A DNA stretch of 64,000 bases from the NCBI GenBank assembly GCA_009777955.1, contig WRKW01000006.1, positions 1 to 64,000 on the forward strand. Reading direction: 5' to 3'. Made by a program: the position numbers and the translations under genes. This DNA comes from Alphaproteobacteria bacterium. GTDB taxonomy: Bacteria > Pseudomonadota > Alphaproteobacteria > Rs-D84. This document shows positions 7,962-61,201 of the stretch, one piece after another. Every line of letters starts with the position of its first letter. The stretch's first letter is position 1. The notes below the pieces were generated by a model. It saw only the letters and a list, made by a program, of their open reading frames with translations. It was not told the DNA's origin and did not search any database.

Positions 7962-7994
7962 TTGCCAATTTGGATGTATCGTTGCGAATCGCAC

Positions 7995-8083
7995 CGTCAT
8001 GCCTTTCATTTTTTTGAATGAATAATGAACAATGAATAATGAATAATTAATGCGTCGCGCAAAGCGCGACACCATCATCATGC
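7995..8083. repeat. AT-rich ATTCATTATTC / CGCGCAAAGCGCG hairpin repeat, copy 2
   Basis: gaatgaataatgaacaatgaataatgaataattaatgcgtcgcgcaaagcgcgac; near-identical to 54491-54570. Confidence 0.75.
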
Positions 8084-8137: not shown

Positions 8138-8306
8138 GTGTCATTGCGAGTCACGCCGTCAGGCGGACGAAGCAATCTTTTATAACGCTTCGTGTCATTG
8201 CGAGTGGTCGAAGACCGCGAAGCAATCTTTTCCAACAGGGGAAGTATAATAATTCCATTGCCTGAAAAGATTGCTTCGTCCGCCTGACGGCGTGACTCGC
8301 AATGAC
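8138..8306. repeat. REP-like hairpin array, cluster 1 (two forward units, spacer, one inverted unit)
   Basis: GTGTCATTGCGAG...GAAGCAATCTTTT units; same family at 14.0, 29.0 and 50.8 kb. Confidence 0.9.
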
Positions 8307-8323
8307 ATTAAACCGCAATGACA

Positions 8324-8821
8324 TTAAAGGCCGAGATCCGCAAACAGCGCCGACCGGAAGTTGGAAACGGTCTGGGCGGCGTACGCGCAATCGTACGCGC
8401 AGCGATACGCGCAAGAGATCGCGCCGAGGTCGCCCCGGAAAACCCAAGCCGACGAAGCGACACTAAACCCAGGAATGCTTGTCAGCTTACACCAACAGTT
8501 GCTTCCGCTGTCGGCAACAGGGTTACCGATATTGGCATAGCCTCCGCTTGTGCTTGAACACAAACTTGTTCCACTGAATTCTGATACATTACTTCCAGTA
8601 CAGCTTCCTACTTTCCAATCGCCAAGGGATAGGTTGGTGCAATCTTGATCCCAACTTAAACCACCAGTGCCACTAGCAGGACATTGATTGACACTACTAC
8701 AACTCGTCGGACTTATGGGTCTTGCCATACACGCAACAGCGGCAATAGACCCATGCAATGGGATTATCGTTAATACAGCAAGGATGCTTGTTATCTTTAT
8801 AGTTTTGTTAAATGTATTCAT
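8324..8821 (-). CDS. Secreted Cys-rich CWCK-family protein, copy 1
   Basis: MNTFNKTIKITSILAVLTIIPLHGSIAAVAC signal peptide; strongly similar to 14345-14836 and 51216-51716; conserved promoter and RBS. Confidence 0.88.
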   Translation of the reverse strand: MNTFNKTIKITSILAVLTIIPLHGSIAAVACMARPISPTSCSSVNQCPASGTGGLSWDQDCTNLSLGDWKVGSCTGSNVSEFSGTSLCSSTSGGYANIGNPVADSGSNCWCKLTSIPGFSVASSAWVFRGDLGAISCAYRCAYDCAYAAQTVSNFRSALFADLGL

Positions 8822-8896
8822 GATACTCTCTCCTTTGGGTATATTATACCATATACCATGACAAAGGTCAATTTGTATTTAGTCATGTAAAGTGAA
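8822..8896 (-). promoter_or_regulatory. Conserved CWCK-cassette promoter
   Basis: -10 TATAAT (8843-8848 complement), -35 TTGACC (8866-8871 complement), 17 nt spacing; 6 nt shorter 5' leader than other copies. Confidence 0.85.
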
Positions 8897-8929: not shown

Positions 8930-8958
8930 TTGACTTTTTTCCTAATTTAATGTATAAT
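8930..8958 (+). promoter_or_regulatory. Sigma70-like promoter for the divergent 8998 gene
   Basis: TTGACT-17 nt-TATAAT. Confidence 0.7.
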
Positions 8959-8997
8959 CATCAGAAATGGAGTTTTTATAAAACGGAGGGAAAAATC

Positions 8998-9501
8998 ATG
9001 GCAAAAATTATACTGACCGGGTGGCAAAAAGTTTTACTTGCAGTACTGACCTTTCTGGTGGGAATACATAAAACAAACGATGGCAAAGCCAGCTTTGAAT
9101 CATGCACAAACGCCGGATATGATAGTTATTTTACATTTTCCTATTGGTGCCCGGGCGCAAGTTCGTGTTCGGGGGGACTGGTTCTTATCGACGGTGTCAC
9201 CAGCGGATGTTGTGTCAATAATACCGGCATCATCTGTCCCAACGGCCCAATATGCGACGGCAACGTATTAACCTGTACCACCGCTGGTACTGGCTGTGCA
9301 TCTTTTAATAGCGGTTGCATAGACAGCACTTGTTATGTATCGGTCAACAGTACCTGTCATAAATGCCCGACAAGCGTCATTGATGGAATAGAAAGACAGG
9401 GCCTGACCTCTACTGTTTTCGCATCAATCGGCGATTGTTATATAAGCTATAGCGGCTCTGACGATCCCGGAAACTTTCAAAATATTTGCCAGTGGTCGTA
9501 A
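8998..9501 (+). CDS. Secreted Cys-rich protein, unknown function
   Basis: Start 8998 preferred (RBS ACGGAGGG; the upstream ATG overlaps the -10 box); signal-like N-terminus and many Cys. Confidence 0.7.
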   Translation: MAKIILTGWQKVLLAVLTFLVGIHKTNDGKASFESCTNAGYDSYFTFSYWCPGASSCSGGLVLIDGVTSGCCVNNTGIICPNGPICDGNVLTCTTAGTGCASFNSGCIDSTCYVSVNSTCHKCPTSVIDGIERQGLTSTVFASIGDCYISYSGSDDPGNFQNICQWS

Positions 9502-14000: not shown

Positions 14001-14329
14001 GTGTCATTGCGAGTGGCCAAAGACCGCGAAGCAATCTTTTCCGGCATTCCGTGTCATTGCGAGTGGTCAAAGACCACGAAGCAATCTTTTCAAATATTTT
14101 GTGTCATTGCGAGTGGTCAAAGACCACGAAGCAATCTTTTCAGATATTTTGTGTCATTGCGAGTGGTCGAAGACCACGAAGCAATCTTTTCAGGCAAGGG
14201 AATTATTATACTTCCCCTGTCGGAAACGATTGCTTCGTCCGCCTGACGGCGTGACTCGCAATGACACGAAATGTCGGAAAAGATTGCTTCGTCCGTCACC
14301 GCAAGCGGTGACGCGACTCGCAATGACAC
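14001..14329. repeat. REP-like hairpin array, cluster 2 (four forward units at exact 50 bp period, spacer, two inverted units)
   Basis: Units start at 14001, 14051, 14101, 14151. Confidence 0.92.
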
Positions 14330-14344
14330 CAGACTGCAATGACA

Positions 14345-14836
14345 TTAAAGGCCGAGACCCGCAAACAGCGCCGACCGGAAGACGGAATGGAGCTGGGCGC
14401 GGATCGCGCAATCGCCCGCGCAGTCATACGCGCAATAGGACGGATCGCCGTGGCCGTACGCGAAAACCCAAGCCGACGAAGCGACACTAAACCCAGGAAT
14501 GCTTGTAAGCTTACACCAACAGTTACTGCCGCTGTCGGCAACAGGATTACCAAAGTTAGGGTAGCTTCCAGTAGTATTAGAGCATAGGCTCGTGCCACTG
14601 AACTCTGATACATTACTTCCAGTACAGCTTCCTACTCTCCAATTCCCAAGGGATAGATTATTACAATCACCATCAATACCAAGGGCGGAACAATAGGTCA
14701 TGCCATTACTTGGACAACTGCTCGGGCTATTAGGTTTCGGTACGCACGCCACAGCGGCAATAGACCCATGTAATGGGATTATCGTTAATACAGCAAGGAT
14801 GCTTGTTAGCTTTATTGTTTTGTTAAATGTATTCAT
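14345..14836 (-). CDS. Secreted Cys-rich CWCK-family protein, copy 2
   Basis: Same signal peptide and constant blocks as copies 1 and 4. Confidence 0.88.
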   Translation of the reverse strand: MNTFNKTIKLTSILAVLTIIPLHGSIAAVACVPKPNSPSSCPSNGMTYCSALGIDGDCNNLSLGNWRVGSCTGSNVSEFSGTSLCSNTTGSYPNFGNPVADSGSNCWCKLTSIPGFSVASSAWVFAYGHGDPSYCAYDCAGDCAIRAQLHSVFRSALFAGLGL

Positions 14837-14837
14837 G

Positions 14838-14912
14838 ATACTCTCTCCTTTGGGTATATTTATATTATACCATATTCCATGACAAAGGTCAATTTGTATT
14901 TAGTCATGTAAA
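14838..14912 (-). promoter_or_regulatory. Conserved CWCK-cassette promoter
   Basis: TATAAT (14864-14869 complement), TTGACC (14887-14892 complement), 17 nt spacing. Confidence 0.85.
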
Positions 14913-25686: not shown

Positions 25687-25745
25687 ATCGTGCGCGTTGC
25701 GCACGATACATACATTATTCATTCAAAAAACAGAAAACATGACGG
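25687..25745. repeat. AT-rich ATTCATTATTC hairpin repeat, copy 3
   Basis: atcgtgcgcgttgcgcacgatacatacattattcattcaaaaaacagaaaacatgacg, compare 134-216. Confidence 0.7.
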
Positions 25746-28987: not shown

Positions 28988-29168
28988 GTGTCATTGCGAG
29001 TGGTCAAAGACCGCGAAGCAATCTTTTCCGGGCATTCCGTGTCATTGCGAGTCACGCCGTCAGGCGGACGAAGCAATCTTTACAGACGATGGAATTCTTA
29101 TACTTTCCCTTTTTGGAAAAGATTGCTTCGTCCGTCACCGCAAGCGGTGACGCGACTCGCAATGACAC
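28988..29168. repeat. REP-like hairpin array, cluster 3 (two forward units, spacer, one inverted unit)
   Basis: GTGTCATTGCGAG...GAAGCAATC units. Confidence 0.9.
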
Positions 29169-29201
29169 CAGACCACAATGACATCAGACCGCCATAACAT
29201 C

Positions 29202-29430
29202 AAAGGCCGAGAGCCGCAAACAGCGCCGACCGGAAGAAGGAATTGCTCAGGGCGATGCCCACGCAAGAACCCGCGCAGTAATACGCGCAACCGGACGGAT
29301 CGCCGTAGTCGACCCCACTGAAAACCCAAGCCAACGAAGCGAAACTAAACCCGGGAATACTTGTTAGCTTACACCAACAGTTACTGCCACCATCTACAAC
29401 TGGGTTGCCGATATTGGCATAGCTTCCGCA
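29202..29430 (-). pseudogene. 5'-truncated CWCK-family gene remnant, copy 3
   Basis: Complement encodes GSYANIGNPVVDGGSNCWCKLTSIPGFSFASLAWVFSGVDYGDPSGCAYYCAGSCVGIALSNSFFRSALFAALGL*; N-terminal half and promoter absent. Confidence 0.8.
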
Positions 29431-29574
29431 CCGCGCACGATACGAATATGTATTCGCGGTCTTTGCCCGCGAATGGCTTATACATTGGATTCCCGCCTTA
29501 CGCAGGAATGATGGCCACTTTGTTGCCGTTATAATTCTTTATATGTTTGCAACCAGATTATGTTACGCCCGCTT

Positions 29575-32966: not shown

Positions 32967-33020
32967 ACGTATTAATTATTCACTATTCATTATTCATTCA
33001 AAAAACGGAAAGCATTACAA
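32967..33020. repeat. AT-rich ATTCATTATTC repeat, copy 5
   Basis: attaattattcactattcattattcattcaaaaaacggaaagcatt. Confidence 0.65.
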
Positions 33021-33121
33021 TGTTGTGCGCAAAAACGTTTAAAATAATTTTTTCTAAATCAGAACACTTATCCATTTGTTATCTGGATTTTTTATGATAT
33101 TATCCGAAAAAGGACACAGGA

Positions 33122-33664
33122 ATGGAATTTTTTGAAATCGCTTTGGCGGTCATGCTTATAGTTTTGGCGGTCAGTATGATATCGCTGTCAGTATCCGCCA
33201 GGGCAAGCCAGCGCATAAAGGCCATGGAACTGTTATTGGCGCGACAATCCGCTGTACTTGTAAAAACCCAGGGAATCTACCGCGCGCGCGCGGCGGCGGA
33301 AATTATCGCGCAAAACGCGGACATGTTATACCAAGACCTATTACAGCACATACTGCCCATTACACGTGCACTTGAAATCCAGCCACGCGACACGGCGGAA
33401 CATCCCCTGTGGCAAACTTTGGGTGGAATGGTCGATGAATATGCGAAAAATCCCTATGTATTGGAAAATTTGCGCAAGATGATAAAGCTTGATCCAGACA
33501 CAGCACGCAGTGCGGATGCGTTTTTGACCCGGGCTGAAAAACTGTTGCGCCATTTGTCGGACAATGATCCAGATGGCTTGTTGGCATCTGCATTTGCCGA
33601 CGGCCTGCTTGGTCAAATCGTGACTTTGCTATTCCAGGCGAAACAACTTGCAAAAGATAACTAG
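33122..33664 (+). CDS. Hypothetical membrane-anchored protein
   Basis: ORF 180 aa with N-terminal TM and helical remainder. Confidence 0.65.
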   Translation: MEFFEIALAVMLIVLAVSMISLSVSARASQRIKAMELLLARQSAVLVKTQGIYRARAAAEIIAQNADMLYQDLLQHILPITRALEIQPRDTAEHPLWQTLGGMVDEYAKNPYVLENLRKMIKLDPDTARSADAFLTRAEKLLRHLSDNDPDGLLASAFADGLLGQIVTLLFQAKQLAKDN

Positions 33665-34062
33665 GCTTTGCCGACGCAATAGTTTTCACAATCAGCCATG
33701 CAATCTTCTGGTAATCCATAATCCCGTAAAAACATCCAGTCGCCGCTTTCATCATATTTGCACCAGCATTTTCCACCCGATTCGTCTTCTGGAATATCTA
33801 TACCTTCATCAGAAATAGAACATGTCGCGAATATTATTTGTTCGTTTGTATTTTCGATCTCATATACCTTTTCCCTGCGATTGCGCGCAATTATGCTTTT
33901 GTACTTATCTTTTATATATTCTGATGTTTTTTCATACAATTGTTCTGCACCCGGAAATTTGTCTGAAAAATAAGCCTGGTTGCCAGATATATAGTTCCAA
34001 ATAACAAACACCCCGCTTGCCAAAGCCAACAGGAAAGAAAGCCTGATTATCAGTTTTTTCAT
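33661..34062 (-). CDS. Membrane-anchored protein with C-terminal CWCK-type motif
   Basis: C-terminus GGKCWCKYDESGDWMFLRDYGLPEDCMADCENYCVGKA. Confidence 0.7.
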   Translation of the reverse strand: MKKLIIRLSFLLALASGVFVIWNYISGNQAYFSDKFPGAEQLYEKTSEYIKDKYKSIIARNRREKVYEIENTNEQIIFATCSISDEGIDIPEDESGGKCWCKYDESGDWMFLRDYGLPEDCMADCENYCVGKA

Positions 34063-50812: not shown

Positions 50813-51183
50813 GTGTCATTGCGAGTCGCGTCATCGCATTAGTGTCATTGCGAGTGGTCGAAGACCGCGAAGCAATCTTTTCCAAACATTCCGTGTCATT
50901 GCGAGTCGCGGCACCGCTTGCTGTGACGGACGAAGCAATCTTTTCCAAACATTCCGTGTCATTGCGAGTGGTCAAAGACCGCGAAGCAATCTCTCCAAAC
51001 ATTCCGTGTCATTGCGAGTCGCAGCACCGCAAGCAGTGACGGACGAAGCAATCTTTTCCAGCATTTCGTGTCATTGCGAGTGGTCGAAGACCGCGAAGCA
51101 ATCTTTTTCAAGCAGGGAAGTATAATAATTCCATTACCTGAAAAGATTGCTTCGTCCGCCTGACGGCGTGACTCGCAATGACA
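50813..51183. repeat. REP-like hairpin array, cluster 4 (half unit, five forward units, spacer, one inverted unit)
   Basis: Alternating hairpin types; same outer arms ATTGCGA/GAAGCAAT. Confidence 0.92.
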
Positions 51184-51215
51184 CCAGACCAGAATGACAT
51201 CAGACCGTCATAACA

Positions 51216-51716
51216 TCAAAGGCCGAGACCCGCAAACAGCGCCGACCGGAAGTCGTCACCGGAATCGGACTGGGCGAAGTTCGCGCAATCGTACGCGCAG
51301 CGATACGCGCAATTGGACGGAACGCTGCCGTCGAGCACGAAAACCCAAGCCGACGAAGCGACACTAAACCCAGGAATGCTTGTTAGCTTACACCAACAGT
51401 ATCTACCGCTGTCGGCAACAGGGTTACCAAAGTTAAGGTATGTTCCGCTTGTGCTTGAACACAGGCTTGCGCCACTGAATTCTGATACATTACTTCCGGT
51501 ACAGTTTGTTAATTTCCAATCCCCAAGGGATAGGTTATTACAATCATTACTATAACCACCCGTACCAAGGGCGGAACAATAGGTGTAACTACCGCAACCT
51601 GTTGGGCTATTAGGTTTCGGCACACACGCAACAGCGGCAACAGAATCATGTAATGGGATTATCGTTAATACTGCAAGGATGCTTGTTAGCTTTATTGTTT
51701 TGTTAAATGTATTCAT
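51216..51716 (-). CDS. Secreted Cys-rich CWCK-family protein, copy 4
   Basis: MNTFNKTIKLTSILAVLTIIPLHDSVAAVACVPKPNSP; constant blocks shared with copies 1 and 2. Confidence 0.88.
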   Translation of the reverse strand: MNTFNKTIKLTSILAVLTIIPLHDSVAAVACVPKPNSPTGCGSYTYCSALGTGGYSNDCNNLSLGDWKLTNCTGSNVSEFSGASLCSSTSGTYLNFGNPVADSGRYCWCKLTSIPGFSVASSAWVFVLDGSVPSNCAYRCAYDCANFAQSDSGDDFRSALFAGLGL

Positions 51717-51717
51717 G

Positions 51718-51793
51718 ATACTCTCTCCTTTGGGTATATTTATATTATACCATATACCATGACAAATGTCAATTTGTATTTAGTCATGTAAAG
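51718..51793 (-). promoter_or_regulatory. Conserved CWCK-cassette promoter
   Basis: TATAAT (51744-51749 complement), consensus TTGACA (51767-51772 complement), 17 nt spacing. Confidence 0.87.
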
Positions 51794-54457: not shown

Positions 54458-54490
54458 GGCGTAAATCGTTTTACGTCTTACGAAGATCCG

Positions 54491-54570
54491 CCATGCTTCC
54501 CGTTTTTTTGAATGAATAGTGAATAATGAATAATTAATGCGTCGCGCAAAGCGCGACACCATCTTCATGC
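54491..54570. repeat. AT-rich ATTCATTATTC / CGCGCAAAGCGCG hairpin repeat, copy 6
   Basis: Near-identical to 7995-8083. Confidence 0.75.
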
Positions 54571-60610: not shown

Positions 60611-61201
60611 ATGAAAAAGTTTTTAGTGACTTGTTTTGTGATGTGTATGCTGTCAATTCCAGGCCACGCAGTGTTTCGATGTGTGGACAATAGAAATCCT
60701 GGTAATTGCACTAATATAGGATCCAATCTTTGGAGAGCGCATGGTTGTGCAACACCAGGAGCGTCGGAATTTTTTGGAACTTTTCGGTGTTCAGATACAC
60801 CGGGAACTATGGGTACAAAAGGAACCCCAAGTAATACAGGGGGGGCACATTGTTGGTGCAACCTTACAAGAACTCCTAATGGCGGATGGGTATATGCGGA
60901 TGTTTCTGCTGGAACCGCTCCCGCCAATCTGGTAGCGCCTGCACCGCCTGCTTCCGCCGGGAGTTTTGAAAATTTACCACCAAATGAAGAGTGTAGTACG
61001 CTAGTGAATACCGCTAATTCACGATTAGCTGCCGCCAGAACAGAAATAGACAAAATAGAGCCTGCCATTGCTACGATAAATGGTGCAGATACACTGATCA
61101 AGGCACAAGCTGCTGAAATAAATTGTCTGAAAAAATGTTCAGAGGCCTGTGCAAATGCTGCCAGAAACGCGGGTAGTTTTCGTAACGGATTATGGCAATA
61201 A
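60611..61201 (+). CDS. Secreted protein, diverged CWC-family member with helical insert
   Basis: Signal peptide; SEFFGTFRCSDT...GGAHCWCNLTRTPNGGWVYADV...CLKKCSEACANAARNAGSFRNGLWQ. Confidence 0.75.
   Translation: MKKFLVTCFVMCMLSIPGHAVFRCVDNRNPGNCTNIGSNLWRAHGCATPGASEFFGTFRCSDTPGTMGTKGTPSNTGGAHCWCNLTRTPNGGWVYADVSAGTAPANLVAPAPPASAGSFENLPPNEECSTLVNTANSRLAAARTEIDKIEPAIATINGADTLIKAQAAEINCLKKCSEACANAARNAGSFRNGLWQ

Follow-up and report, generated by a model that had tools for sequence, protein, structure and literature searches.

Cassettes in the Window and Their Family

The stretch of DNA analysed here, referred to below as the window, comprises the first 64,000 nucleotides of contig WRKW01000006.1 and derives from a member of Rs-D84, an order of gut Alphaproteobacteria with genomes of about 1 Mb or less (PMC12306168). 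It contains three complete copies of a unit made up of a promoter block, a gene for a small secreted Cys-rich protein (here termed the CWC protein) and a hairpin-repeat array, as well as a 5′-truncated fourth copy and the promoter block of a further copy that is cut by the contig start (Table 1). A sequence-only reading of the window had reported exactly this set of units, and both the coordinates and the shuffle controls agree with it: against 18 copies of the hairpin core GTGTCATTGCGAGT and four of the promoter block in the window, dinucleotide shuffles gave none of either. The promoter ends (n = 4, from the three complete copies and the contig-start copy) are near-identical and agree with sigma-70 at 11 of 12 positions, the spacer being 17 nt long. 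That all units lie on one strand, as the same reading had it, is true of the window, where they are on the minus strand, but not of the genome, where the 25 promoter blocks divide into 15 forward and 10 reverse.

Table 1. Features of the cassettes in the window. A, template adenines; non-A core, other core positions of the template, each given as changed/compared.
Feature	Position	Strand	Remarks
Target gene, copy 1	8324..8821	−	165 aa; signal peptide, CWCK motif
Variable repeat, copy 1	8324..8462	−	139 nt, ends with stop codon; L011: A changed 18/26, non-A core 4/52
Hairpin-repeat array 3′ of copy 1	8138..8280	.	
Conserved promoter block, copy 1	8827..8891	−	
Target gene, copy 2	14345..14836	−	163 aa
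Variable repeat, copy 2	14345..14486	−	142 nt; L001: A changed 17/27, non-A core 1/54
Hairpin-repeat array 3′ of copy 2	14001..14330	.	
Conserved promoter block, copy 2	14842..14912	−	TTGACC-17-TATAAT
Target gene, copy 3	51216..51716	−	166 aa
Variable repeat, copy 3	51216..51363	−	148 nt (6-nt insertion); L009: A changed 16/27, non-A core 1/54
Hairpin-repeat array 3′ of copy 3	50813..51185	.	
Conserved promoter block, copy 3	51722..51792	−	
5′-truncated target gene copy	29200..29445	−	3′ end = 29200
Variable repeat, truncated copy	29200-29344	−	145 nt; L026: A changed 17/27, non-A core 4/54
Hairpin-repeat array 3′ of truncated copy	28988..29169	.	
Promoter block of further copy cut by contig start	1..71	−	

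Several other elements of the window belong to neither the genes nor the arrays of these units. The CWC protein has two divergent relatives (60611-61201, plus strand, and 33661-34062, minus strand), which show the CWC motif and a C-terminal Cys region but fall outside the cassette family, and another, different Cys-rich protein gene (8950-9501, plus strand) stands in divergent orientation to copy 1. There is also a second dispersed repeat family (135-212, 7994-8083, 25687-25743, 32970-33045 and 54488-54570), consisting of AT-rich blocks of the ATTCATTATTCA type that contain small palindromes such as GTCGCGCAAAGCGCGAC.

The assembly to which the window belongs, 1,019,126 bases in 14 contigs and 98.6% complete, returns 34 matches to the CWC protein, which include complete genes, genes left incomplete by a contig end, one truncated copy and more distant matches. 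The family consists of 21 complete genes, seven more that are represented by their 5′ ends where contigs stop, and the one truncated copy, which puts the total for this 1.02-Mb genome at no fewer than 28 genes for small secreted proteins in addition to the truncated copy. This count upholds the earlier suggestion of a lineage-specific expanded secreted family, and the accompanying remark that the protein belongs to no known family is matched by the lack of any convincing hit in Pfam, NCBIfam, PHROGs or PDB. An AlphaFold2 prediction that drew on the window proteins and one relative reached a pLDDT of 37 and is unusable for fold assignment. Alignment of the proteins reveals a constant framework interrupted by variable blocks, the final one of which (SAWVF to FRSALF) differs in every copy. 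The signal peptide, the Cys scaffold and this hypervariable C-terminus suggest that the CWC proteins are secreted or surface binders, and their most likely role would be that of a diversified repertoire directed against variable partners, be they phage, host or neighbours.

A Hypervariable Gene End and Its Template

What the sequence-only reading missed is the hypervariable 3′ end of the gene. This variable repeat (VR) makes up the final ~142 bp of every gene and runs to the stop codon, and within it the DNA follows the pattern NNG NNC GNC NNC GGC GNT CCG TCC NNT TGC GCG NNT NNC TGC GCG NNC NNT TGC GCG NNC NNC GCC CAG NNC NNT TCC GNC, which is the signature expected from the rewriting of AAC and AAT codons. 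A template repeat (TR) whose adenines occupy the codons that vary among VRs is present in the same genome, on contig C5 (L091), where the corresponding block reads ATG AAC GAC AAC GGC GAT CCG TCC AAT TGC GCG AAT AAC TGC GCG AAC AAT TGC GCG AAC AAC GCC CAG AAC AAT TCC GAC. A second TR, shorter by 15 nt, lies on contig C13, and a truncated one is found on contig C3, directly 3′ of a target gene (L005). At the latter locus a leader rich in G and C, which has a 13-bp stem, separates target gene and TR, and the same leader precedes the TR on C13; it is perhaps part of the template RNA.

When 25 VRs, the cores of which are all distinct, are compared with the C5 TR, adenine positions prove to be changed in 407 of 672 cases (60.6%) and other core positions in 124 of 1341 (9.2%; Fisher p = 4e-131). 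The adenines have given way to G (170), T (154) and C (83), and because A is replaced by all three other bases, deamination was rejected as the source of the changes. These fall on both first positions of the AAY codons, and third bases and A-free codons are mostly constant. The cleanest VRs combine 12-18 adenine changes with a single non-A core change, and the freshest include window copies 2 and 3 (16-17 adenine changes, one other core change); the near-absence of non-A changes from several VRs implies recent writing. The most divergent VRs have non-A changes at up to 13 of 54 core positions, which marks those copies as old. With 16 variable codons the TR allows about 6.6e15 possible proteins per gene, and no change to an AAY codon creates a stop. 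The CxxxCxxxC scaffold stays constant because AAC and AAT cannot yield stops and are flanked by codons for Cys, Ala, Ser and Phe/Arg that contain no A.

VR 3′ ends followed by a hairpin array also occur as orphans, with no gene attached, at three sites (L097, C8:36885; L104, C4:42061; L105, C5:10854), and the points at which orphan VRs join unrelated DNA are close to GCGC-rich spots.

We conclude that the cassettes are almost certainly scattered genes targeted by a diversity-generating retroelement (DGR), a reading that explains why each gene ends in a C-terminus of its own although the rest of its DNA framework is nearly the same from copy to copy. Differences at TR adenines, all three substitutions and a VR at the gene 3′ end are seen in the genome itself, and the reverse transcriptase (RT) of the kind with an SQ motif is seen in relatives; the assembly itself holds only a C-terminal remnant of such an enzyme. 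On the evidence of genome sequences, then, we regard the TR, the VRs, their adenine specificity, the copy number, the dispersal and the family-wide link to a DGR-type RT as established. Mechanistically, each VR would be copied from the A-rich TR by way of a cDNA in which adenines are misread as any base, behind a near-identical, predicted sigma-70-type promoter that would serve each secreted Cys-rich protein gene.

One alternative to a retroelement is that these are ordinary paralogues, a secreted or surface protein whose copies diverged through duplication, positive selection and gene conversion. Such a history would sit well with the region upstream of the VR, where the copies look like mosaics in which common blocks appear in varying combinations (e.g., L007/L024, L003/L010 and L004/L014), and it is likely that ordinary paralogue diversification accounts for the variation there. 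As an account of the VR it is extremely improbable, given that the changes sit on TR adenines, that third bases and A-free codons hardly take part, that the genome has a TR with adenines as predicted and that relatives carry the complete system. The blocks that copies share in varying combinations lie at about codons 32-70 of the target genes, suggesting gene conversion.

Reverse Transcriptases in the Genome and in Relatives

No intact DGR-type RT with the SQ motif was found in the assembly, the contigs of which are broken at these very repeats. A remnant of the C-terminal part of an RT lies at C3:43389-43562, immediately after the truncated TR, and this adjacency makes it most likely that a gene-TR-RT locus was once there; we infer that the RT formerly encoded after this TR wrote the VRs in trans. 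The sole full RT of the genome (G000:C2:199852-201250; L085:5853-7250) is of the UG13b type, a DRT defence class unrelated to DGRs, and was rejected as the driver. Among four same-genus genomes searched, none has a DGR RT.

A broader view is provided by 148 genomes of the same family, 119 of which match the CWC protein profile, with at least 10-20 copies per genome in several when no more than 23 candidates were scored in each, and 49 of which match a DGR-RT profile. The relatives' RTs carry the DGR-type SQ motif (GxPxGNxxSQW) and share about 42-50% identity with RTs encoded on viral contigs, their RT family being common in IMG/VR. Neither a CWC relative nor the promoter block was detected in IMG/VR, and phage carriage of the cassette was rejected on that ground. 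Seven relatives have CWC gene, TR and DGR-type RT together, and all 45 of the 45 TR/VR mismatches in them, counted in the best 70-nt windows only, fall on TR adenines. In one genome with an open RT frame (G096), the nearby VR differs from the TR at 13 of 24 adenines and 0 of 104 other positions, and two remote VRs differ at 13 of 24 and 15 of 24 adenines and at 2 of 104 and 4 of 104 other positions, respectively. The fit of these remote copies to the TR supports action in trans; G096 was used for this comparison since the remote VRs of a second genome, G006, have aged too far to be compared cleanly with its TR. In G006, an ORF of ~100 aa (L144:6831-7145, minus strand) between TR and RT is a possible DGR accessory gene.

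Has the system in the window's genome fallen silent? We lean towards the view, which refines the DGR reading and is compatible with it, that the RT has been lost and that the variants are a frozen repertoire. The RT remnant is what such a loss would leave, and a genome of the family that is assembled as one contig and 99% complete (G036) has many CWC genes and an RT fragment only, so the RT can evidently be lost in this family while targets are kept; a similar situation is documented for Treponema denticola, some isolates of which retain leftover target genes and no RT (PMC4891356). Weighing against loss is the fact that many contigs break off within a cassette, a TR or a hairpin array, and thus a second, intact gene-TR-RT locus on a short contig could be missing from the bin, and the VRs with almost no non-A changes speak of recent writing. 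More tentatively, and with the balance tipped somewhat against it, one may envision bursts followed by freezing: one DGR would have written at least 28 similarly promoted secreted proteins in trans, the RT would then have been lost, and the variants would have been kept and recombined, in a cycle that recurs across the family. If this were so, targets would have come to make up a few percent of a small genome's genes, and recurrence would fit the presence of CWC genes in many more family genomes than have a DGR RT (119 vs. only 49).

Hairpin Arrays and the Dispersal of the Cassettes

The hairpin array had been read as one element of a recurring three-part unit. Promoter and gene are indeed dispersed together, but the array is not a constant companion: it follows within 200 bp after 20 of 28 VR ends, and 16 of the 36 arrays in the genome lie elsewhere. 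A same-genus genome (G003) has 30 hairpin cores but neither a promoter block nor a VR end, and the hairpins are accordingly best seen as an independent repeat family. REP-like dispersed hairpin repeats are short palindromic units that form intergenic arrays. The arrays here are like them in both respects and unlike them in being enriched directly after VRs; no Rfam match was found in the window. In the DGR of phage BPP-1 a hairpin just downstream of the VR, a single 8-bp stem, is required (PMC3240598). Perfect stems of 6 bp or more were found soon after the target-gene stop codon in five of seven relatives and at 5 of 25 VR ends in the genome itself (versus 12% in the control), where the arrays that follow 20 of 28 VR ends are of imperfect hairpins. 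By analogy, the arrays may serve a BPP-1-like downstream hairpin role, or they may terminate transcription.

How the cassettes came to be dispersed is a separate matter. Two of them, window copy 2 and L010, lie between genes that are adjacent in G003 with no cassette, a result that answers favourably the search for empty sites suggested by the sequence-only reading, and the 5′ boundary of the cassette is sharp, at TTTACATGAC. Both observations would be expected of a mobile cassette, either MITE-like or mobilised in trans by an insertion sequence, that moves gene, promoter and hairpins as one unit and of which variability is a by-product. As a full account this is unlikely: hairpins are found without genes, and 8 of the 28 VR ends have no array; the flanks, read by eye, display no terminal inverted repeats, target-site duplications or transposase; and the adenine-specific variation is left unexplained. 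The flanks read thus lend no support to the earlier suggestion that the units spread by a transposase acting in trans or by recombination between flanking repeats, and the hairpins are a separate family. A mobile cassette may nonetheless have been the route by which the units were dispersed, apart from the variation of their VRs, which we attribute to the DGR.

Comparison with Known Systems

In the BPP-1 DGR, the target gene (mtd) adjoins the RT. The cassettes share with it adenine mutagenesis between TR and VR and inverted repeats shortly 3′ of the VR, and differ in that BPP-1 has one target and a single stem, versus mostly arrays of a dispersed repeat here. A closer parallel is the T. denticola DGR (TvpA family), with two to seven targets per isolate and eight target proteins named for one isolate (PMC4891356). 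There, too, several targets are remote from the RT, VRs derive from one TR and the proteins are predicted lipoproteins or secreted proteins; the present system stands apart by its 25 VRs and at least 28 gene copies, and by target proteins that have no convincing Pfam or PDB relative.

Other large systems are built differently. Trichodesmium erythraeum is a cyanobacterium with a much larger genome. Its strain IMS101 has TR/VR homology at 18 dispersed loci and two DGR RTs (PMC8867640, PMC7517822), and it resembles the present case in its dispersed loci and remote targets, although those targets carry CLec domains and are served by two RTs, in contrast to the Cys-rich CWC family. In Thiohalocapsa PB-PSB1, nine separate DGR loci and 15 targets are linked to NACHT-type conflict systems (PMC10907252); the targets are again many, and the remote ones are apparently diversified in trans, whereas here one TR family serves one small secreted protein family. 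For a Pseudomonas genome, one survey reports a TR with far more VRs (PMC6642488); its 21 merged VRs are located in one gene, which is a different arrangement from the dispersed genes described here.

The DGR is a known type of system; what is new is an extreme multi-target example of it and a target family without a known domain. Among DGR targets in general, a C-type lectin fold is common, though not universal. Roughly 3% of the genes of a 1-Mb genome, the gene total being estimated from genome size, are targets of hypermutation, and a single bacterial family offers a natural series that begins with complete gene-TR-RT loci and ends with dispersed, RT-less repertoires. Since Roux et al. note that remote targets escaped their metagenomic survey (PMC8144416), systems on this scale may be generally overlooked. 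In terms of numbers, the 25 VRs on one TR family exceed the published 15 targets in Thiohalocapsa, 18 loci in Trichodesmium and seven to eight targets in T. denticola.
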